Part shown: one piece after another, positions 15,487-63,651 of the stretch
Numbering within the stretch: position 1 is the first letter of the stretch
How the letters are laid out: each line of letters starts with the position of its first letter
Source of the DNA: Bauldia sp.
GTDB taxonomy: Bacteria > Pseudomonadota > Alphaproteobacteria > Rhizobiales > Kaistiaceae
Assembly (NCBI GenBank): GCA_037200845.1
Contig: JBBCGQ010000001.1
Span: 124,001-188,000 of the forward strand
Length of the DNA: 64,000 nt
Direction of reading: 5' to 3'
Notes under the pieces: model-generated
The model's database searches: none
Seen by the model: only the letters and a program-made list of their open reading frames with translations
Told to the model about the DNA's origin: nothing
Position numbers and translations under genes: made by a program

Positions 15487-15601
15487 CTCCGCGTTCCCCG
15501 CGAAAGCGGGGACCCACGCGGTCGAAGAAGTGTCGCGGCAGTCGCGAGTTGCGCGCTCCATGGCCAAGCTCCTGGACCCCGCTTTCGCGGGGGAAGCGGA
15601 G
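15487..15601. repeat. Rep-B facing hairpin pair
   Basis: CCGCGTTCCCCGCGAAAGCGGGGACCCA and CTGGACCCCGCTTTCGCGGGG face each other across about 55 bp. The pair lies between rpsP and rimM inside the ribosomal operon, so it would be transcribed and could modulate read-through or mRNA stability of the downstream genes. Confidence 0.8.
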
Positions 15602-15607
15602 TGGTGG

Positions 15608-15991
15608 CTAGGCCGCCGGGGCCTCGGCCGGAGCGGCAGCAGCAGCGGCGGCCTTGTCGGCAGCGGCGGCGGCAGCACCGGTGCGCTCCTGCGCCTTCTT
15701 GCCCGGCACGGCCTTCTCCGGATTGTTGCGCGGCGAACGCTTGGCGAGGCCGGCGGCATCGAGGAAGCGGAGCACGCGGTCGGTCGGCTGCGCGCCCTTG
15801 CTGATCCAATGCTGGATGCGCTCGGTGACGAGCTCGACGCGCTTCGGATCGTTCTTCGGCAGGATCGGGTTCCAGGTGCCGACGATCTCGATGAAGCGGC
15901 CGTCGCGCGGGTAGCGCGAATCGGCAATCACGATGCGGTAGAACGGACGCTTCTTGGCGCCCGCGCGGGTGAGACGGATTTTCAGGGACAT
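15608..15991 (-). CDS. rpsP: 30S ribosomal protein S16
   Basis: S16 is needed for 30S assembly. The 127-residue protein begins [20 protein letters not shown], has the family segments [22 protein letters not shown] and [16 protein letters not shown]. An Ala-rich C-terminal extension from about residue 95 is common in this order. The true start is the ATG at 15991; the longer frame is unlikely because it reads back into the ffh end. It follows ffh by 31 bp in the same operon. Confidence 0.97.
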
Positions 15992-16022
15992 TTCAGTTTC
16001 CTTGCGTTGATTTCGGTGAACG

Positions 16023-17558
<1,536 letters not shown>

Positions 17559-53611: not shown

Positions 53612-54664
53612 TCAGATACCCGCGAGCCGGTACACTCGCGTCGCCGTACCGTGGAACAGATGGGCCTTTTCGTCGGCGGAATAGCTCGCCACGATCCGCT
53701 TGAACGTGTTCCAGATGGTGTCGTAGCTGCACGTTCCCTTGTCGACGGGAAAATTACCCTCGAACATGCAACGTTGGACGCCAAAGGCTGAAATGCACTC
53801 CTCGACATAAGGCCCCCACGCTTCTGCCAGTTCCGACGAGGAAGGCGGCAGCGCGCCGTTTTCAAAGCCAAACCCAAATAGCCGCATTCCAAAACCGCCA
53901 ACCTTGACGGTGACGTTGTCGTGCTCGGCAAGCCGCTGCATGCCGGCCAGCCACTCGCCGAAGACTGCGTCACGGCGACCGGCATACGGCCCGATGCCAA
54001 TTGGCCCTCCCGCATGATTGAGTACGATCATCGTTTCCGGAAAGGCGCCCGCGAGGTCAGCCAGCTCGGAAAGCTGTGTGTGGTACATCCATGCGTCGAA
54101 TGAGAGGCCCAGACGCCCGAGGTGGGCAAAGCCCTGCCTAAACGATCGTTCCTGCAGCATGCCTGGCGGCGGGTCGGCCGTCGTGCCGCGAGCCGCTGGA
54201 TCGGCATGCCACGCCGAGATGTTGCGAATGCCACGAAAACGAGTTGGCGCAGCCGCGACATGTGCTTCGAGCTCCGCTCCACTTCGGTCCCCGCTAGCGA
54301 CTAGGTCGACTTTGCCGACAATACCGGCGCAAACACGAGTGTCGCCGTACAGACCGCTCGCACCCATGGCGGCCACGCCATTAGCGAATTCCGTCTCACC
54401 CAACGACTTCAATCGGGGATCACCATCGGCGCGATACATCGCCCTGCATTCGACGAAGACGGTGGCGCGAATGTTGTGCCGGTCGCTGATATCGCCAAGG
54501 AATTCGAAAAGCAGATAACGGCGATCTGGTCGGTCCCAGAAAAGATGGTGGTGAGCGTCGACGATGGCCAGATTCGGCTCCAGGATCTCCTCCTGCCGTT
54601 GCGCCAGCCAATCCGGCCGAACTCGAATATGCGGGCCCGGTTCGTTCGTTTCTTTCCCACTCAA
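53612..54664 (-). CDS. Amidohydrolase-family (TIM-barrel) hydrolase
   Basis: The protein belongs to the amidohydrolase_2 family, which includes lactonases and decarboxylases of aromatic degradation. From TTG at 54664 (with GGGAG seven bases upstream) it has 350 residues. It shows RPDWLAQRQEEILEPNLAIVDAHHHLF (in part NLAIVDAHHHLF; metal ligands His38 and His40), ATVFVECRAMYRADG, and MIVLNHAGGPIG. The C-terminus has RCMFEGNFPVDKGTCSYDTIW with the catalytic Asp region. A TTG at 54742 would be an alternative start. It is the last gene of the minus-strand set NicX-like, DUF4286-like, CMD-like, Rieske, amidohydrolase. The substrate is unknown. Confidence 0.82.
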   Translation of the reverse strand: MSGKETNEPGPHIRVRPDWLAQRQEEILEPNLAIVDAHHHLFWDRPDRRYLLFEFLGDISDRHNIRATVFVECRAMYRADGDPRLKSLGETEFANGVAAMGASGLYGDTRVCAGIVGKVDLVASGDRSGAELEAHVAAAPTRFRGIRNISAWHADPAARGTTADPPPGMLQERSFRQGFAHLGRLGLSFDAWMYHTQLSELADLAGAFPETMIVLNHAGGPIGIGPYAGRRDAVFGEWLAGMQRLAEHDNVTVKVGGFGMRLFGFGFENGALPPSSSELAEAWGPYVEECISAFGVQRCMFEGNFPVDKGTCSYDTIWNTFKRIVASYSADEKAHLFHGTATRVYRLAGI

Positions 54665-54842
54665 GCGAAATCTCCCGATCGTGACTGGCAGTTCGATCAA
54701 CCTGCGCTGGGAGTGCAGGCCATCGCGCAACGCTTCATCCAAGTCTGTCGTGACGCCCCCCGGACACCCGTTCCGCGAGCCGTGCTCATTGCGCCCCGCG
54801 GAGGAGCACCACGCTCGCCAGCGTCCGTTCGCGCGCGAGCTG

Positions 54843-55205
54843 TCAGCCCGACCCCTCGCGCGCGACGCTGGGCATCTTGATGAAGATATGACCCTCCATA
54901 ACTTTTACCTCGAAGACCTGAAGATCGTTGGTTATGGGCGCGCAAAGCCCTTTGCCCGTTCTGATATCGAATCGGCCAGCATGAAGCGGACATTCGATCG
55001 CGCCATCCTCCAGCCACCCTTCCGAGAGGCGCGCGTACTCATGGGTGCAGATGTTGTCGGACGCGCGAAACTCATCGCCTGGAAGGTGATAGAGCGCGAT
55101 TTCGCGATCACCGACAGTGACGGTCGTGACGCTTCCTTCGATCACCCCATCGACCCCTGCAACCATCAGCCAGTCGTCGTCCGTCAATAAATCCACCTCA
55201 CGCAA
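54843..55205 (-). CDS. Rieske [2Fe-2S] ferredoxin
   Basis: This electron carrier probably feeds a ring-hydroxylating oxygenase. The 120-residue protein has the Rieske ligands Cys53-x-His55 (CTHEYARLSEG) and Cys72-x2-His75 (ECPLHAGRFD), typical of soluble dioxygenase ferredoxins such as the biphenyl or benzoate types. A ferredoxin-reductase-like flavoprotein is encoded 5.7 kb away at 60883. No oxygenase alpha subunit is in the window; it may lie outside. Confidence 0.9.
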   Translation of the reverse strand: MREVDLLTDDDWLMVAGVDGVIEGSVTTVTVGDREIALYHLPGDEFRASDNICTHEYARLSEGWLEDGAIECPLHAGRFDIRTGKGLCAPITNDLQVFEVKVMEGHIFIKMPSVAREGSG

Positions 55206-55284: not shown

Positions 55285-55761
55285 CTATTTCACCGTTGCG
55301 GTCTCTTTTTCGTAGGCGCCAGCATCTTCAAGCACGTGATTGGCGACTTTGAAGGCCTCCAGACCCGCCGGAATGCCGCAATAGACGGTTGCCTGCAGCA
55401 GCACTTCTTTGATCTCGTCAACAGAAACGCCGTTGTTCAAGGCGCCGCGGACATGCAGTTTCAGCTCTGAGGACCGATTGAGCGCCGTCAACATGGCCAG
55501 GTTGATCATGCTACGCGTCTTGAAATCGAGACCCGGCCTGCTCCATGCGAAACCCCAGCACCACTCGGTCGTAATGGTCTGGAACGTCATCATGAAGTCG
55601 TTGGCGTTTTCGATCGAGCTATCTACATAGTCGCTGCCGAGCACCGCACGGCGGACTTCCAGCCCGTCCTCGAAAAGCTTCGTCCGCCCGTTGAGATGAC
55701 TCTTTCCGTTTGAAGGCTTGGGCATATTTGTCTCTGCTGGTTGTTGCGATATCGACGTCAT
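55285..55761 (-). CDS. Carboxymuconolactone decarboxylase-family protein, first copy
   Basis: The 158-residue protein has the PcaC-like core: NDFMMTFQTITTEWCWGFAWSRPGLDFKTRSMINL (in parts: TTEWCWGFAWSRPGLDFKTR, SMINLAMLTALNRSSELKLH), HVRGALNNGVSVDEIKEVLLQ and TVYCGIPAGLEAF. In PcaC this domain decarboxylates gamma-carboxymuconolactone in the protocatechuate branch; here the substrate is not known. The start may be ATG 55761 or 55725. It overlaps the next gene by 4 bp, so it is coupled to it. Confidence 0.88.
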   Translation of the reverse strand: MTSISQQPAETNMPKPSNGKSHLNGRTKLFEDGLEVRRAVLGSDYVDSSIENANDFMMTFQTITTEWCWGFAWSRPGLDFKTRSMINLAMLTALNRSSELKLHVRGALNNGVSVDEIKEVLLQATVYCGIPAGLEAFKVANHVLEDAGAYEKETATVK

Positions 55762-56093
55762 CGCGGAGCGGGAGCGCTCTTCGGATTTTCGATTTCGACA
55801 TAGATGTTGCGCGTGAAGCGGTAATGCTGGCGCATCCGTGTAGTCCAGGGCGTCGACTGAGCGGCAGCCTTGGTGTAGCCATCGCTGCGAAGCACGTCGG
55901 CGCTCTCTAGCTCGTAGATCGCAAGATACTTCGGTGCTCCTTCCACCGCGACATAACGCTTGGCATCGAGAAACCCCTCAATAGCCAGTCGCTCCGGCAG
56001 ATGCTCTTCCCAATACCACCGGTTAAATTCCTCCTCGTATTCGGGCTCTACATCCATCGCGACTAACAGCAATGCCCGGGCTTCCTTGCTCAT
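55758..56093 (-). CDS. DUF4286/EthD-like small protein
   Basis: The 111-residue protein has VAMDVEPEYEEEFNRWYWEEHLPERL near the start (in part EPEYEEEFNRWYWEEHLPER) and GFLDAKRYVAVEGAPKYLAIYELES, matching the DUF4286 type of dimeric alpha-beta barrel. Such proteins often occur in catabolic gene clusters as small isomerase- or cyclase-like partners, but no activity is proven. It overlaps the CMD gene by 4 bp. Confidence 0.75.
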   Translation of the reverse strand: MSKEARALLLVAMDVEPEYEEEFNRWYWEEHLPERLAIEGFLDAKRYVAVEGAPKYLAIYELESADVLRSDGYTKAAAQSTPWTTRMRQHYRFTRNIYVEIENPKSAPAPR

Positions 56094-56192: not shown

Positions 56193-57239
56193 TCACATCG
56201 GTCCATCGATGGGCCGCAGAAAGCGCCCATCCTCGATGCGTTTGTCGCCATCGACATAGAGCGTCGGTTCGAGGAGGACGCCGTCGATGTGGATTTTGGA
56301 CATGATCGTTCCGCCAACGTCGATGTTGGTCCCAAGCCCGAAATGTATGGAGCCCAGGATGTTTTTGTCCTCCCGCTGAACCCCGCGGATCATGGCCTTA
56401 GTGTTTATGCCAACCGACGCTTCTGCTGGACACAGATACGCATTTTCGTCTCCAAATTCGGCAAGGTGATTACGCAAGGTGTGCGCGTCCGCGCCGCCGT
56501 CGATCTTGACGATCCGTCCCTTGTCGATGGTGATTTCAATCGGCCCTGTGAGACGGCCGAGGTGATGCATGCACAGATCTACGACGAGCTTTCCGTGTGC
56601 GTTGTATTCGACCGGCGGCACATTGAATTCGCCGTTCGGGAAGAGAAAGCGCCGAAGCAGCGACTTCCGGTTCTGCACCTTGCCGACATCCTGAATCTTG
56701 TACGGCACGAAATCGTCGCCCGGCAGATTTGGAACAAAGATTCGGCCCTCAACCGAATATGTGAAATCCGTGCCGTACTTGGATGTGACGCGGCAGGTCT
56801 TGGCATCCCGACCGAAGATGTTGACCGCCACGTAATAATTACGTCGCGCCATCTCGAGCTGGTTCTCGGTCACAGCGCCCGATTGGAACATCTCAAGCGT
56901 CATGCCGCCATCCATGCAGATGGCGGCGATGCCCGCCTGCATAGCCTTAAGGTTGGCGGGCGAATGCAGCATCCCGGTCGAAGCTATGAGGACATTCGCA
57001 TCCACAGTCAGCATGGCCGTGCAAACAGCTTCGGGCGGATCGAAATAATCAGCGGGACGACGATCGAAGATCGCAAGCGCGGCGTCGGCACCCAATTCCG
57101 AAAGGGTGGCCATCACCACCTGCCACACCCGCGGGTCGTGAGCGAAGTCGGTGATGACGAGAACCTTCATCCCCTCGGTGATATTGGCCACGAGAGGGGC
57201 CCTCAGGTACTTCATCGTTCCAGTCGTGAGCCCAGTCAA
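56193..57239 (-). CDS. NicX-like 2,5-dihydroxypyridine dioxygenase / M29-like family
   Basis: The 348-residue protein belongs to the aminopeptidase-T-like superfamily that also contains NicX, the Fe-dependent 2,5-dihydroxypyridine 5,6-dioxygenase of nicotinate degradation. Family-like features are ILGSIHFGLGTNIDVGG (His299) and the HID triplet His317-Ile-Asp319, which matches my memory of the NicX iron-site H-x-D pair. PAEASVGINTK (about residues 271-281) is the M29-like region. The context (Rieske, CMD, alpha/beta hydrolases) fits ring-cleavage chemistry. A peptidase-like activity or another heterocycle is also possible. It is the first gene of the minus-strand unit, divergent from the CMD gene at 57643. 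Confidence 0.7.
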   Translation of the reverse strand: MTGLTTGTMKYLRAPLVANITEGMKVLVITDFAHDPRVWQVVMATLSELGADAALAIFDRRPADYFDPPEAVCTAMLTVDANVLIASTGMLHSPANLKAMQAGIAAICMDGGMTLEMFQSGAVTENQLEMARRNYYVAVNIFGRDAKTCRVTSKYGTDFTYSVEGRIFVPNLPGDDFVPYKIQDVGKVQNRKSLLRRFLFPNGEFNVPPVEYNAHGKLVVDLCMHHLGRLTGPIEITIDKGRIVKIDGGADAHTLRNHLAEFGDENAYLCPAEASVGINTKAMIRGVQREDKNILGSIHFGLGTNIDVGGTIMSKIHIDGVLLEPTLYVDGDKRIEDGRFLRPIDGPM

Positions 57240-57642
57240 AGCCGCAGCCTCCTCAAAAGCACCTGCTCTCCAATCTGATCATATTACAGAATGTCTGTCA
57301 CTATCATACAATCATATACAGAAAATGTCTGCCGACGTGGTGCGGTGCCCTTTCTCGCCTATTCTCGTAAGCGTAGCAGCAAAAAACATGTGCTTATCAT
57401 GGGCTTCTGGCACAAGGAGGCGCCGCCTAGTTTGACTACGGTAGGACCGTATGATAGTAAGCCAACGTCGCGCTAGGACACGCTAGATTGTTTCAAAGCG
57501 TCGATGCCACAATCGGGGCGAGAGTTGGCGAACAGTCCGAGCGGCTCGCGCAGACAAGCTCATGGCGCAGCGATGCGATGCGCCGCGTTAGGCACCGTTG
57601 CCGCCGGCCGAGATTTCCCTAGTGACGCGATGGAGCAATAGA
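57240..57642. other. Divergent promoter region of the catabolic block
   Basis: This 403-bp AT-rich stretch separates the minus-strand unit (NicX-like onward) from the plus-strand CMD gene, so it should contain both promoters. It has two related inverted-repeat sites, listed separately. There is no coding sequence that I would support. The CMD gene's GGAG ribosome-binding site lies at 57632-57635. Confidence 0.55.
57284..57332. promoter_or_regulatory. Two related inverted-repeat operator candidates
   Basis: Site 1 is ACAGA-ATG-TCTGT (about 57286-57298). Site 2 is ACAGA-AAATG-TCTG (about 57318-57332). They are about 32 bp apart, three helical turns, and lie about 45 and 80 bp from the start of the NicX-like gene. 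The pair resembles a cooperative binding site for a dimeric regulator. The nearby GntR/FCD protein is a candidate, but its known consensus types differ from this one. Confidence 0.45.
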
Positions 57643-58215
57643 ATGGCGAGGGTTCCCTACATCACCCGCGATGAAGCGCCCGCGGAGTACCGCGAACTCT
57701 TCGACCATTCTGCTTCAAACCGCGGCCACGTCTCCCATTTGTTCAGAGCGCTGGTCGCATCTCCGAAGCTGTTCAGAAAGCGATACGACTACAGCAACAG
57801 CCTGCGGGACGACACGGCCATAGACCGCCGCTATCGGGAACTGGCGGTGCTCACAGTCGGCCGGATCGCGAATTCGGAGTACGAGTTCACCCATCATGCG
57901 CGTTTGGCGCTGCTGGCGGGCGTTCGGCCCACGCAGATTGATGCACTCGCCGACTTCGAGACCTCGACGGAGTTCAATGAACAAGACAAGGCGGTCATGC
58001 GCTATGCCGTCGAAGTGACGGAGCAGATACACGTCAGCGACCAGACATGGGCGGCGCTCGCGAAATTCTTCAATCATCGGCAGCTCGTGGAGCTCGTGCT
58101 CATTGTCGCTTGGTACAATCAGACCGTCCGTGTGCTGATCCCGCTGCAGATCGAACTGGAGGCCGATACCGTGAATCGGTACGTGGCCGAACGCGAGCGG
58201 CACGGAGCGGATTGA
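57643..58215 (+). CDS. Carboxymuconolactone decarboxylase-family protein, second copy
   Basis: The 190-residue protein starts at ATG 57643 (GGAG seven bases upstream): MARVPYITRDEAPAEYRELFD. It has the AhpD-like core RYRELAVLTVGRIANSEYEFTHHARLAL (in part ELAVLTVGRIANSEYEFTHH) with no CxxC pair, so a peroxidase-like role is unlikely. The middle has VRPTQIDALADFE and the C-terminal part AALAKFFNHRQLVELVLIVAWYN (in part HRQLVELVLIVAWYN). It is distinct from the first CMD copy at 55285. It probably acts in the same pathway. Confidence 0.85.
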   Translation: MARVPYITRDEAPAEYRELFDHSASNRGHVSHLFRALVASPKLFRKRYDYSNSLRDDTAIDRRYRELAVLTVGRIANSEYEFTHHARLALLAGVRPTQIDALADFETSTEFNEQDKAVMRYAVEVTEQIHVSDQTWAALAKFFNHRQLVELVLIVAWYNQTVRVLIPLQIELEADTVNRYVAERERHGAD

Positions 58216-58281: not shown

Positions 58282-59076
58282 ATGACGGCTCGAGTCATGA
58301 AGGCGGGCGACATCCACTTCAACGTCGTGGTGGAGGGGCCACCTGGCGCGCCGTGGGTGGTCCTGAGCAACTCGCTCGCCACCAACCTATCGCTCTGGGA
58401 AAGCTTGGCCGCAGCCCTGCGCGGACGATATCGTGTGTTCCGCTATGACCAGCGCGGTCACGGCCTTTCCACCGCATCGCCCCCACCCTATTCCCTGCCG
58501 CTGCTGGTTGAAGACGTAGTCCATTTGATGGACCAAGCCGGGATCGAGCGCGCAAATTTCGTCGGAATCTCGATGGGCGGCGCGACCGGATGGGGACTGG
58601 CGCACCATCACCACGAGCGGCTCATCTCCCTCACGGTTTGTGATTCGGCATTGGCGGCGAGTTCCGCGGCGGAATGGGAGAAGCGTCTCGCGATCGTACG
58701 CTCGGAGGGACTTGGTGCACTCGTGGAACCGACGCTGGCACGCTGGTTCACCAGTCAGTCCATAGCCCAGGAAACGGATGCCGTCAGGCAAGTGCGCAAG
58801 ATGATCCGAACCACCAGCCAGGAGGGATTCATCGGCTGCGTGATGGCGCTTCAGACCTACAGCTATTCGGAAGGAGTCGAAGCCCTAAGGCTTCCAGTGC
58901 TATTGGTCGCCGGCTCGCAAGACGGCCTTCGCCCGAAGACGATGGCGGAAGACGCGCGCCGCATCATCGGCGCCCGGCTTGCCGTAATCCCCAACGCTGG
59001 ACATCTCTCCAACATTGAAAATCCCGCCGAATTCAATCGCGTCGTCGGATCATTTCTGGACGCGCAGCAACTGTAA
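58282..59076 (+). CDS. Alpha/beta hydrolase, 3-oxoadipate enol-lactonase-like
   Basis: The 264-residue protein resembles PcaD-type enol-lactone hydrolases: VVLSNSLATNLSLWESLAAALRGRYRVFRYDQRGHGLS (in parts NSLATNLSLWESLAAALRG and RVFRYDQRGHGLS), nucleophile elbow GISMGG (Ser97), Asp214 in AGSQDGLRP and His241 in NAGHLSNIENP. The catalytic triad is complete. PcaD opens 3-oxoadipate enol-lactone; here the substrate may be related. It follows the CMD gene by 66 bp on the same strand. Confidence 0.88.
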   Translation: MTARVMKAGDIHFNVVVEGPPGAPWVVLSNSLATNLSLWESLAAALRGRYRVFRYDQRGHGLSTASPPPYSLPLLVEDVVHLMDQAGIERANFVGISMGGATGWGLAHHHHERLISLTVCDSALAASSAAEWEKRLAIVRSEGLGALVEPTLARWFTSQSIAQETDAVRQVRKMIRTTSQEGFIGCVMALQTYSYSEGVEALRLPVLLVAGSQDGLRPKTMAEDARRIIGARLAVIPNAGHLSNIENPAEFNRVVGSFLDAQQL

Positions 59077-59091
59077 GCACCGTCGGTCGGT

Positions 59092-59859
59092 TCAAGGGAG
59101 CGAAGACAGGAACGGCTTTACGAATTCGGCGAATTCTCTCGGCGCCTGATAGGGGCCCAGATGAGAAGCCGAAGGCGCTACGACGAACGTCGCGTTTCGA
59201 AGCCTGTCGGCAACGGCACGGGCTACACCGTCGGGCGGGTTGTTGTAGTCAAGTGCACCGCCCGCGACGAGCACCGGACACCGCATCTCGTCAAGGATCG
59301 GGTCGATGAACGTGCCCACGATACCGCGCACAGTCATCTCATAGCCCTTGGGATCGTTCTTGGAAAATATATCGTCGCGATAGTGGACGAAGTGGGCATC
59401 GTGGGGCAGCGGGCCGTAAGCTGTACTGACCGCCTCCTCGGCGATGAAATCCATTCCGCCGCCTCCCGACTTCATCTTTTCGAGCCGGGCGAGTGACAAC
59501 TCCCGTTTGGCGCCCATCGTCGGGTTAGTGAAGACAACCGATCTGACCCTTTCTGGGTAAGTATGGGCATAGTAGAGGCTGATGACGCCGCCGACGGCAG
59601 TCCCCATGATGGACAAAGTGTCCAGGCCGAGTGCATGCCTGATGGCCTCGATGTCTTCGACATGATCGGAGATCGTCCACGGACGGGCCGGGACCGGAGA
59701 ACGTCCGAAACCACGCTGGTCATAACGGATGCAGCGGACGTCCTCGCCCATCTCGGCAACGAACCTGTCCCAAAAGGTCAAATTCGCGCCCAGCGCATGA
59801 ACGAGGAGAAGGGGCGGCGCACCCTCGGGCCCGCTGACTTGCACGTTAAGGTCAATCAC
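59092..59859 (-). CDS. Alpha/beta hydrolase with Ala in place of the nucleophilic Ser
   Basis: The 255-residue protein has the alpha/beta hydrolase fold: LLLVHALGANLTFWDRFVAEM, RCIRYDQRGFGRS and a nucleophile-elbow sequence IMGTAVGGVIS. The usual G-x-S-x-G is G-T-A-V-G, with Ala88 (codon GCC) at the nucleophile position. Asp204 (GGALDYNN) and His233 (SASHLG) of the triad remain. It may be catalytically dead, use a different mechanism, or carry an unusual cofactor-free chemistry. N-formylmaleamate deformylase (NicD) of nicotinate degradation is also an alpha/beta hydrolase, but it has the Ser. It is convergent with the PcaD-like gene (15-bp gap). Confidence 0.85.
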   Translation of the reverse strand: MIDLNVQVSGPEGAPPLLLVHALGANLTFWDRFVAEMGEDVRCIRYDQRGFGRSPVPARPWTISDHVEDIEAIRHALGLDTLSIMGTAVGGVISLYYAHTYPERVRSVVFTNPTMGAKRELSLARLEKMKSGGGGMDFIAEEAVSTAYGPLPHDAHFVHYRDDIFSKNDPKGYEMTVRGIVGTFIDPILDEMRCPVLVAGGALDYNNPPDGVARAVADRLRNATFVVAPSASHLGPYQAPREFAEFVKPFLSSLP

Positions 59860-60188
59860 TTGCTTCCCTTGCCCTGCAATGAGAGAGCGACCGAACGCGA
59901 CGGGCGGACTGAACGAGCACGCGATCGAACTCGCCAGCTACGGAAACGATTGGCTTTTGAGGAATCCGAATGGACGCGATACAGAGCACTCACCTCTTTG
60001 AACGGGGCTCATGTCGTGACCGGCAGGAGGCTACCAGCGATGCAGAAATGCAAAATAGAGATCGCAGCCAATGTGTGACAATCATTCGATAATACTATAG
60101 TGGAGATTTTTCGTACTGCCAGCGTTCCGTTTCTTCATTTTTTCCAATATCTAACCGGATTCGAGCTTTGAGGCCCGAAGGGAAACAA
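59860..60188. other. Divergent promoter region upstream of the GntR gene
   Basis: This 329-bp gap lies between the Ala-elbow hydrolase (minus strand) and the GntR gene (plus strand). It is AT-rich near 60070-60150. GTGTGACAATCATTCGATAA (60073-60092) followed by TACTATAG could be a promoter, but no clean -35/-10 spacing is seen. No coding sequence is credible. Confidence 0.4.
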
Positions 60189-60866
60189 ATGGTCGACACG
60201 CTTCGCGTCGAGAAGATGCCTGCCCCGCTCCGCCAACGAGTGGTCGATAATTTGCGCGGTGCAATCACAGGCGGTCGCTTCAGGGCCGGGGACCGACTGG
60301 TCGAAAGGGAGTTGTGCGACGCTATCGGCGTAAGCAGGACGCTGATACGCGAAGCCCTTCGGCAATTGGAAGCCGAAGGCTTGGTCAGTGTGCTGCCCAA
60401 TAAGGGCCCCATCGTCGCTTTGATGACCGCGGAAGAAGCGCGTGGCCTCTATCAGGTGCGCGCCGTCCTGGAGGGATTGGCGAGCCGTTTGTTCATTGAC
60501 ACTGCAACCGAGAAACAGAAGGCGCAATTGAGACAGGCCTTCAACCGCCTCACGGTCGCGTGCGAAGCCGATAACTTCCTGGAGGCCAGCGCGGCCAAGA
60601 ACGACTTCTATGTGACCATGTTCAGCGGCTCTGGCAACGAGACCTTGCTGCTTCAACTCAATCAACTGTTCGCCCGCACCAGCATCCTGCGATCGATGAC
60701 GTTGAACTACCCGAACAGGCTTGCCCAGTCCGCCAAAGAGATCGAGAAAATATTCCAGGCGGTCATGAGTGGAGATAAAGAGGCAGCCTGGAATGCGAGC
60801 GTGGCTCACGTAGAAAGCGCGGCAGCCATCCTGATGAAGATCATGAAGGCAAGGGAAGATTCATAG
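60189..60866 (+). CDS. GntR-family regulator, FCD type
   Basis: The 225-residue protein has an N-terminal winged helix with VERELCDAIGVSRTLIREALRQLEAEGLV (in part ELCDAIGVSRTLIREALRQL; about residues 38-63) and a C-terminal all-helical FCD domain (about 75-220; RAVLEGLASRLFI, NDFYVTMFSGSGNETLL, AHVESAAAILMK). FCD-type regulators bind organic-acid-like ligands and often repress nearby catabolic genes. The ATG at 60189 has AAGGGA upstream; a TTG seven codons earlier is possible. Likely controls this block. Confidence 0.92.
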   Translation: MVDTLRVEKMPAPLRQRVVDNLRGAITGGRFRAGDRLVERELCDAIGVSRTLIREALRQLEAEGLVSVLPNKGPIVALMTAEEARGLYQVRAVLEGLASRLFIDTATEKQKAQLRQAFNRLTVACEADNFLEASAAKNDFYVTMFSGSGNETLLLQLNQLFARTSILRSMTLNYPNRLAQSAKEIEKIFQAVMSGDKEAAWNASVAHVESAAAILMKIMKAREDS

Positions 60867-60882: not shown

Positions 60883-62100
60883 CTAGGCCGCGGCCGCCTG
60901 TGCAAGCGGCACTGAAGCATCGCGCAAGGCTTCCATATTCACCGGCTTTCGACCCCGGATTAATGCGCGACCCGCGCGTATGTCTGCAGCACGGTTGATT
61001 GCGGTTACACCGTTCACGGTCCCCCCCTTCGAAATATGCACGGCGGTGAAGGCGTCATCGCCGCCGTCGGCACGCACGACAGTCGTCTCAGCCTCTGTCG
61101 CCAACCCGACCACCTGGATGTTTGCGCGGTGCTGATCGGACCAGAACCACGGAATCTCGTCGTAGGCTTGAGTAGACCCCGCCATGGATCGGCCGACGCT
61201 GAGGCCATGATTCTGGGCGTGGGCCCAAGTTTCAAGCCGCATTGGCTGCTGGTAGATGGGATGGGGAAAGACCGCGATGTCCCCCGCGGCATAGATGTCG
61301 GCTAAGCTCGATTCTCCGAACGCGTTCACCAGGATTCCATTGTCCGACTCGATCCCGGCCTGCTCGGCCAGTTCGACGTTTCGCTTCATCCCGATCGCGG
61401 CAACGACGACATCGCAGATCTCGTCCGGCCCGTTCGCGCACGCAACGCGCAGTCTGGCGCCAACAGGGACAATCCCCTCGACGCCGACGCCGTAGCGGAT
61501 TTCAACTCCCGCGTTTCTGTGTATCCGATCCACGGCCGCAGCGCCCTCCGGCGATACGCATCGTCCCATCGGCGCGGCCCCTGCCTCAAGGACGAGAACC
61601 GACGCGCCAAGCGCGCGTGCGCTCGCCGCGACCTCAAGACCGATCACCCCGGCGCCGATGCAAACGACGCGGGACGCCGAAACAAGCGCTGATCGCAGAC
61701 GCCGAGAATCGGCGAGGTTCCGCAGGTAATGTGCATGTTCGGCGCCGGGAATGGCCAGTCGACGCGCCCGGCCGCCGGTCGCGATCAGGAGTTTGTCGAA
61801 CGGTTGTGTCGCGCCATTGTCGAGTGTCAGGCGCCGGGCCTTGGCATCAATCTCCAGCACCTTCGTCTGAAGAAGCAGATCGATGTTTCGCTCATCGTAT
61901 GTCGTCACGGACTGAAAAAACTTGACCGCCGGTTCCTCGGCCTCGGTCAGCACCGCCTTCGACAAGGGCGGACGTTCGTAGGGATGCCAAGGCTCGTCGC
62001 CGACGATTAGGATACGGCCGGCAAACCCGGCCTGTCGCATTCCGATCGCCGCCCAACTCCCAGCTTGTCCGGCACCGATGATGACGTGGAGCGGTTCCAT
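60883..62100 (-). CDS. FAD-dependent ferredoxin reductase-like oxidoreductase
   Basis: The 405-residue protein (from ATG 62100) has two dinucleotide-binding motifs: GAGQAG (residues 9-14) for FAD and GAGVIGLEVAA (149 onward) for NAD(P)H, plus the RPPLSK segment (43-48) and IYAAGDIAVF. It closely resembles class III ferredoxin reductases of ring-hydroxylating oxygenases (for example BphA4-type). It could reduce the Rieske ferredoxin encoded at 54843. It lies 52 bp downstream of the tctA stop; a TTG at 62145 would shorten this to 7 bp. Confidence 0.9.
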   Translation of the reverse strand: MEPLHVIIGAGQAGSWAAIGMRQAGFAGRILIVGDEPWHPYERPPLSKAVLTEAEEPAVKFFQSVTTYDERNIDLLLQTKVLEIDAKARRLTLDNGATQPFDKLLIATGGRARRLAIPGAEHAHYLRNLADSRRLRSALVSASRVVCIGAGVIGLEVAASARALGASVLVLEAGAAPMGRCVSPEGAAAVDRIHRNAGVEIRYGVGVEGIVPVGARLRVACANGPDEICDVVVAAIGMKRNVELAEQAGIESDNGILVNAFGESSLADIYAAGDIAVFPHPIYQQPMRLETWAHAQNHGLSVGRSMAGSTQAYDEIPWFWSDQHRANIQVVGLATEAETTVVRADGGDDAFTAVHISKGGTVNGVTAINRAADIRAGRALIRGRKPVNMEALRDASVPLAQAAAA

Positions 62101-62151
62101 GACTGGCGTTCTTGGGTGCGACTTCGGTGCGACTTCGTTTGCCAACTGCCG

Positions 62152-63651
62152 CTACGCAGCCTTTCCGACCTTCCGAGTGATGGCCGCGCGCAGAGCAAGC
62201 GACACGCTCCACAGGACGATGAGTATGGCGATGACGAGGACAACACCGCTCACGGGCCTCTGGAACAAGACCCAGTAGTCCCCTTCAGAGATGAGCAGGG
62301 CACGCCGCAGGTAGACCTCCATCAACGGCCCGAGGATGAAGCCAAGCAAAAGCGGAGCGGGTTCAAGACCAACAAGCCGCATGAAATATCCGGCGCCGCC
62401 GAACACGCAGATGAGCCCGACGTCGAACACACTGGAATTGATGCTGTATGTGCCGATACATACCGCGGTCACGATGACCGGATAGAGCAGGTGGGTCGGC
62501 ACCGACAGAAGCTTGACCCAGATTCCGACCAACGGAACGTTGAGCAGGATCAGCATCACATTGCCGATCCAGAAGCTCGCAATGAGCCCCCAGAATATCT
62601 CGGGATTATTGGTGAGCAGAAGTGGCCCGGGCGTTATGCCGTGGAGCATCATCGCGCCAAGCATGACGGCCATGGTGGCGGTGCCCGGCACTCCGAGCGT
62701 GAGCATTGGGATGAATGCCGTCTGCGCCGCGGCGTTGTTGGCCGCCTCGGGTGACACCACGCCCTCTATGGCTCCGTGGCCAAAGCGCTCGGGCGTTTTT
62801 GATATCCGCTTTTCGACAAGATAGCTGAAGAACGAGGCGAGGGTCGGGCCTGTGCCCGGTAATGCTCCGAAGAAGCTTCCTATGCCGGAGCCGCGAAGGA
62901 CCGGATTCACGGAGCGCCGCACGTCATCGGCCGTCGGGATCATCGACCGGAGTGTAACCTTCGCCTTGATGATGTCGGGCGGCGCCTCGGTGAACGTCGA
63001 TATGATCTCGGTTATGCCGAAAAGTGCCATCGCCAGCACTGCAATGCTGATGCCGTCGTAGAGCGCATAGATGTCGAGGTCGAACCTTGGAACACCGCTG
63101 TTCACGTCGATGCCGATCAGCCCCAGAAGAATGCCGACGAGGACCATCGCTATGCCCTTGGCCGGACCGCTCTTGCCGATGCTCGCCGCGGCCAAAAGGC
63201 CCAGCACCATGACGGAGAAATATTCCGTCGGGCCGAAAGCAATCGCGAGATTTGCAATGACCGGCGACAGGATCATCAGCAGGATGATTCCGACGATGCC
63301 GCCGATGAACGAGCCGACACCTGTCATCAGAAGGGCTACGCCCGCGCGGCCTTGCCGCGCCATGGGATAGCCGTCAAGGGCGGTAACGGCACTGGCAGCG
63401 CCGCCGGGAACGTTGAGCAGAATCGACGTGATCGAGCCGCCGTATTCGGACCCGTAGTAGACGCCCGCGAGCATGATCATCGCGGTCACGGGATCCATGT
63501 AAAATGTAAAGGGAAGAAGAAGTGCGATGGTCGCCAGTGGGCCGATGCCGGGAAGAACGCCCACAAACGTTCCAAGGAAGACGCCGACAAAACAGTACGC
63601 GAGATTGTGAAGCGACAGAGCTATCGGAAATCCGATCGTGAACAGATCCAT
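62152..63651 (-). CDS. tctA: Tripartite tricarboxylate transporter large permease TctA
   Basis: TctA is the large membrane subunit of TTT transporters, which import organic acids with a periplasmic binding protein. The 499-residue protein has about 12 hydrophobic helices and the family signatures LGTFVGVLPGIGPLATIALLLPFTF (in part FVGVLPGIGPLATIALLLP), SEYGGSITSILLNVPGG, and GVPGTATMAVMLGAMMLHGITPGP (in parts GVPGTATMAVMLG and MLHGITPGP). It follows tctB on the same strand. No tctC is visible in the window. Confidence 0.96.
   Translation of the reverse strand: MDLFTIGFPIALSLHNLAYCFVGVFLGTFVGVLPGIGPLATIALLLPFTFYMDPVTAMIMLAGVYYGSEYGGSITSILLNVPGGAASAVTALDGYPMARQGRAGVALLMTGVGSFIGGIVGIILLMILSPVIANLAIAFGPTEYFSVMVLGLLAAASIGKSGPAKGIAMVLVGILLGLIGIDVNSGVPRFDLDIYALYDGISIAVLAMALFGITEIISTFTEAPPDIIKAKVTLRSMIPTADDVRRSVNPVLRGSGIGSFFGALPGTGPTLASFFSYLVEKRISKTPERFGHGAIEGVVSPEAANNAAAQTAFIPMLTLGVPGTATMAVMLGAMMLHGITPGPLLLTNNPEIFWGLIASFWIGNVMLILLNVPLVGIWVKLLSVPTHLLYPVIVTAVCIGTYSINSSVFDVGLICVFGGAGYFMRLVGLEPAPLLLGFILGPLMEVYLRRALLISEGDYWVLFQRPVSGVVLVIAILIVLWSVSLALRAAITRKVGKAA

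Follow-up and report, generated by a model that had tools for sequence, protein, structure and literature searches.

What does a NicX-sized protein do when its gene lies outside a classical nic cluster? The question is raised by a gene in a 64,000-nucleotide stretch of Bauldia sp. DNA (the window), whose product a first-pass annotation had found to fit the Fe(II) 2,5-dihydroxypyridine dioxygenase type in length and in its His-x-Asp pair. We favor a different reading, to which we give a probability of about 55%: that the window protein belongs to the metal-dependent hydrolases and carries, on a NicX-sized scaffold, a two-metal site of the M29 aminopeptidase type. The ligand residues are assigned by alignment and the fold class by structure prediction, and from these residues and the gene context we infer that metal is bound and that the reaction is a hydrolysis, together with the kind of bond and the class of substrate.

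The open reading frame (Table 1) does encode 348 residues, bearing out the NicX-like size noted earlier. The protein and its relatives (n = 17 in the genome collection, 61-77% identity, nearly full length) form what we call family A. It is single copy in its own genome, where a second match (62 residues, E 0.32) is noise, and its distribution is patchy, with strong matches (E <1e-199) in 6 of 297 genomes of the order, its own included, and in 1 of 398 genomes of a phylum sample, again its own. Within the NicX/M29 superfamily, family A is a group new to the literature that we searched (open-access PMC only), in which we found no description of it. Pfam and NCBIfam at E 0.001 gave no match for the window protein, which we do not count against NicX because the dioxygenase NdpE likewise gets none. 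Since NdpE matches no model and short M29-like relatives are labeled aminopeptidase, family libraries cannot separate these groups.

Table 1. Positions of the gene, its predicted metal-ligand codons and the surrounding genes in the window.
Feature	Position	Strand	Basis
Amidohydro_2 protein, start not settled	53612..54742	-	family-library match
Rieske ferredoxin	54843..55205	-	family-library match
PcaC-like CMD protein	55285..55761	-	family-library match
DUF4286-like small protein	55758..56093	-	below Pfam cut-off; relatives in other loci
Gene for NicX-sized protein with predicted M29-type site, 348 aa, TTG start	56193..57239	-	ORF, relatives
Codons H317-x-D319, predicted metal-2 ligands; AmpS H381/D383, NicX His318/Asp320	56283..56291	-	alignment
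Codon H299, predicted metal-1 ligand; AmpS H348 position, Leu300 in NicX	56343..56345	-	alignment
Codon E273, predicted bridging ligand; AmpS E319 position, His265 in NicX	56421..56423	-	alignment
Codon E204, predicted metal-1 ligand; AmpS E253 position, Phe in NicX	56628..56630	-	alignment
GAGGAGG, likely ribosome-binding site, 8 nt upstream of TTG	57248..57254	-	sequence
CMD/AhpD-like protein	57598..58215	+	family-library match
Alpha/beta hydrolase, PcaD-like, 237.5 bits vs cut-off 255.85	58282..59076	+	
Second alpha/beta hydrolase	59092..59859	-	family-library match
GntR/FCD regulator	60168..60866	+	family-library match
Ferredoxin reductase, HcaD-like	60883..62145	-	family-library match
TctA-like permease, tripartite tricarboxylate transporter	62152..63651	-	sequence, TctC neighbor, homologues elsewhere

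Judged by its sequence as a whole and by its predicted fold, the window protein is closer to NicX than to the M29 peptidases. NicX was the sole true match of the window protein among solved structures in a phmmer search (E 3.9e-5), improving to E 1.7e-11 with an 18-row family profile, and neither search found an M29 structure. Profile-profile comparison (hhalign) gave E 1.4e-23 over 300 columns for the NicX set and E 0.0016 over 128 columns for the M29 set. The AlphaFold2 model (mean pLDDT 77) places NicX at the top of the solved structures (Z 26.9, rmsd 3.6, 313 residues), followed by AmpS, PepS and AmpT (Z 17.6-18.6, AmpS at 18.6; another PepS entry at 15.0), and Foldseek with the same model returned NicX first and M29 next. 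The NicX assignment thus stands as far as size, profile and fold are concerned. Overall similarity to a dioxygenase rather than to peptidases speaks against our reading and, with NicX the nearest solved relative by every one of these measures, favors an alternative that we regard as rather unlikely, namely a ring-cleaving dioxygenase like NicX with an altered iron site and a different substrate.

The putative metal site tells otherwise. Iron in NicX is held by His265, Ser302, His318 and Asp320 (excerpts of PMC7910607), and the ligands of AmpS are E253, E319 (bridging), H348, H381 and D383, with Y355 nearby (excerpts of PMC7023490). Our alignment of 63 rows held 20 distinct family A rows, 16 NicX-type rows and 11 M29 rows; the M29 loci used numbered 11 of 21 and the plasmid records 8 of 46, the latter being NdpE and seven relatives, and L075-L089 were left out, as were L023-L025, whose contigs match those of L011, L004 and L019 in length. 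One M29 row, L073, passed the Pfam cut-off on a partial match without ligands and was kept in the alignment and dropped from the tree. The five M29 two-metal positions (E204, E273, H299, H317, D319) are invariant in all 20 family A rows, at only ~20% overall identity to M29, and this retention argues for a hydrolase. Conserved M29 metal ligands make up the first half of what the first-pass annotation had named beforehand as refuting its proposal, the second being peptidase activity with no iron-dependent ring cleavage, and an Fe(II) site is not supported here. In the same 20 rows Glu273 and Gly301 stand where NicX has the ligands His265 and Ser302, so that two of four are kept, whereas the NicX pattern persists in the 16 NicX-type rows and in another six taken from genomes with a family A member as well; this too points to a hydrolase. 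Three other rows (L035, L043, L048) have His at the 265 position with neither the NicX nor the M29 pattern complete. The His317-x-Asp319 pair, cited earlier as fitting the NicX type, is present as described, but by alignment it is not diagnostic of that type because M29 aminopeptidases also have His-x-Asp.

A smaller alignment gave the same ligand assignments. The hhalign pairings with NicX (E273 with His, H299 with Leu, and H317-D319) agree with the alignment, as do those of E204, H299, H317 and D319 in the weak match to M29, where E273 falls a few columns off. Loops 265-274, 284-292 and 302-314 of the model, which include the metal-ligand and active-site loops, have pLDDT <50, leaving the site geometry unconfirmed by the model.

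In a dioxygenase, Glu would stand in for His265 and a His would lie two residues before the Ser302 position, with one Fe(II) on E273, H317 and D319, or two. Such an enzyme would fit the alignment of L91-H92 with Leu104-His105 of NicX and of K292 with the Arg293 position; against it, besides the two replaced ligands, the substrate-binding His189 of NicX corresponds to Leu199 and Glu177 falls in a non-conserved stretch. According to excerpts of PMC7356986, KpiC is an amidohydrolase-family member that acts as a ring-cleaving dioxygenase; it offers the precedent of a hydrolase-family protein that cleaves rings with dioxygen, and because of it hydrolase ligands are no proof of hydrolysis.

Are these then ordinary M29 aminopeptidases? 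All five metal ligands are kept, and plasmid-borne relatives at 27-36% identity are annotated as aminopeptidases. The M29 rows, however, carry the same five ligands plus the active-site Tyr of the EEHYHD set in 10 of 11 cases, and all 20 family A rows have I or V in place of this Tyr; in excerpts of PMC7023490, Y352A abolished the activity of LmAmpII. Because a Tyr essential in an M29 peptidase is missing from its aligned position, the window protein is probably not a peptidase. It is also ~60 residues shorter than the M29 peptidases, its score with the Pfam M29 model (PF02073), 15.4 bits, stays below the cut-off of 27, and it sits in a catabolic cluster, all of which makes an aminopeptidase very improbable. 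The same model does match 15 of 18 family members when E values up to 10 are allowed (best 1.9e-7), and it missed both NicX-type proteins scanned, in keeping with a hydrolase.

The phylogeny points the same way. In a tree of 62 rows with the ligand columns removed, family A (support 100/100), the NicX clade (100/99) and the M29 peptidases (100/100) are each recovered, and family A together with five relatives forms a clade at 98/93; several long branches meet, so that deep joins outside the named clades are unsure. The comparison of NicX and M29 proteins proposed in the first-pass annotation thus resolves family A, but as a clade of its own outside NicX, which is consistent with a hydrolase.

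The window gene lies in a catabolic neighborhood that is not a nic cluster. Downstream and in the same direction lie the DUF4286-like, CMD, Rieske ferredoxin and Amidohydro_2 genes; the CMD/AhpD-like and PcaD-like hydrolase genes are divergent, and past the window edge are TctC, two Amidohydro_2 proteins and a 3-hydroxyisobutyrate dehydrogenase-type protein. The neighbors reported earlier, a Rieske ferredoxin and two CMD proteins, are there, and the placement outside a nic cluster holds: no homologues of the maleamate amidohydrolase NdpG, the maleate isomerase NdpH or the NicC-type NdpD were found in the window at E 1e-4, and no Mo hydroxylase among the window neighbors scanned. The PcaD-like hydrolase is a distant member of the NicD/NdpF superfamily (32% over 116 aa). 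We found no support for a Rieske oxygenase close by that would be fed by the Rieske ferredoxin and the reductase, the sole Ring_hydroxyl_A match in the genome lying ~153 kb away in a stretch that, from gene names read by eye, resembles betaine transport and demethylation. The own genome yielded no LigB-type dioxygenase and one intradiol dioxygenase, ~490 kb from the window gene. Far from the window, at C1:2321693-2322727, it encodes a NicC-family monooxygenase, 36% identical to that of locus L016, ~0.5 kb from an Abhydrolase_1 gene.

Among the relatives, 14 of 17 loci have an alpha/beta hydrolase 15-3938 bp from the family A gene, and with L090 and L091 added the count within 8 kb is 16 of 19, some of the loci counted being close relatives and some contigs being cut. 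The chance expectation is ~6% of 21-kb stretches (10 Abhydrolase_1 matches in the 3.15 Mb own genome), an estimate from one genome with Pfam at E 1e-10, set beside loci scanned by tblastn at 1e-6 with family-member queries. NicC-like monooxygenases occur nearby in 4 of 17 loci (L006, L013, L016, L019), as do a Mo hydroxylase large subunit and UbiD (L004, L005, L017, L019). We read these associations as supporting a hydrolase acting in the breakdown of small molecules. DUF4286-like relatives, often longer (~195 aa), accompany family A genes in 7 of the 17 other loci, and some relatives adjoin TRAP or TTT transporter genes.

The same neighborhoods also hold arguments for a dioxygenase. In L006 and L016 the family A gene directly follows the NicC-like gene, whose product has 6-hydroxynicotinate 3-monooxygenase as its closest solved relative (E 1e-99 and 5e-93), and this is the expected place for a ring-cleaving enzyme, which weighs against a hydrolase; a close alpha/beta hydrolase is likewise a feature of the ndp cluster. 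Among the L016 neighbors scanned, no other ring-cleaving dioxygenase was recognized, an RPE65-type oxygenase aside, and that genome gave no match to a NicX-type protein or to a maleamate amidohydrolase at the limits used. On the other side, homologues of the maleamate amidohydrolase are absent from all 17 family A loci, as they are, with those of the maleate isomerase, from the window.

Two loci deserve separate mention. In L003 a 64-aa match to the end of a NicC-like gene lies just before the family gene (upstream of 10001); L003 seems to have lost this gene, which its near twin L016 has whole. In L019 the contig breaks off within the first codons of an NdpH-like maleate isomerase gene that comes after a NicC-like gene (15544-16813), and an amidohydrolase fragment (72%) lies on another contig of that genome. 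This NicC-like gene may belong to a separate nic-type cluster that the contig end interrupts, ~5 kb from the family gene, so as support it weighs little.

A separate NicX-type protein was found in 6 of 13 relatives' genomes searched (for NdpE and the amidohydrolase; L005, L008, L010 and L011 were outside this set). Two of the 13, G659 and G665, hold family A yet give zero NdpE match, and the NdpE search is therefore insensitive to family A. The co-occurrence suggests different jobs for the two proteins and adds to the case for a hydrolase. The window protein may, as the first-pass annotation proposed, act on a different ring than NicX's.

If the protein is a two-metal hydrolase, metal 1 would be bound by E204 and H299 and metal 2 by H317 and D319, with E273 bridging both. 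The metal pair would activate water for attack on a C-N bond (amide, lactam or imide) or a similar acyl bond, and the molecule so opened or trimmed may be a small and possibly N-heterocyclic intermediate that stems from an aromatic or heteroaromatic acid; the next step would probably fall to the alpha/beta hydrolase encoded nearby. Context does not fix the bond or the reaction, because the associated genes vary between loci.

This wide variation in accompanying genes would also suit some other metal enzyme on the same scaffold, such as a decarboxylase, hydratase or isomerase of an aromatic-acid pathway. In a sister group (L029, L102, L103, L108) R-x-E replaces H-x-D with E, E and H kept, a different or lost metal site, and the site is therefore plastic in the wider superfamily, as such a proposal would have it. 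Five invariant hydrolase-type ligands argue against it, we know of no characterized superfamily member with such chemistry, and we consider it quite unlikely.

It is tempting to speculate, with little confidence, that the two-metal hydrolase does the job of NicX without oxygen. Beside the NicC-like decarboxylating hydroxylase of L006 and L016, family A might use its two metals to hydrolyze a dihydroxypyridine in its pyridone (lactam) tautomer, opening it to an amino-oxo acid, and NicX would then be an oxygen-using descendant of such hydrolases, through loss of metal site 1 and a change of the bridging Glu to His.

Beyond the window protein itself, whose breakdown pathway is probably not yet described, family A marks an enzyme step in several catabolic clusters that family libraries leave unnamed, its wider relatives being annotated as aminopeptidases. 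Among known systems, the crocagin proteins CgnE and CgnB (PDB 6zsu, 6zsv) share a related fold (Z 11.6 and 10.3), the sole basis of our comparison; they differ in being peptide-binding members of a biosynthetic pathway, according to excerpts of the source. Short M29-like proteins of haloarchaeal, Rhodococcus and Niallia plasmids (L101, L104, L106, L107) resemble family A in size and in their EEH..HD ligands, and L101, L104 and L106 have small-molecule catabolic neighbors, but at 27-36% identity they fall outside the 100/100 family A clade. Where annotated they are called aminopeptidases (L101, L103, L104 and L106 carry this label among the short relatives; NdpE is L105).

The M29 enzymes AmpS, AmpT and PepS (PDB 1zjc, 2ayi, 4icq) have the five metal ligands and a related fold in common with family A, which differs in its shorter chain, its lack of the active-site Tyr, its low identity and its weak profile match. 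With the 2,5-dihydroxypyridine 5,6-dioxygenases NicX and NdpE (PDB 7cn3, 7cup; NdpE on a Sphingobium plasmid) it shares length, fold, best profile, His-x-Asp and Leu-His, but it has Glu273 and Gly301, the additional Glu204 and His299 (Phe and Leu in NicX), and a separate clade. According to excerpts of PMC7356986, NicX and HpdF share homology with metallo-dependent aminopeptidases, and the loss of one metal site from NicX has been proposed from a 3D model. Family A would be a NicX-shaped group that keeps the ligands of both metal sites, in catabolic neighborhoods, and it makes the step from hydrolase to oxygenase testable through the exchange of a few residues.
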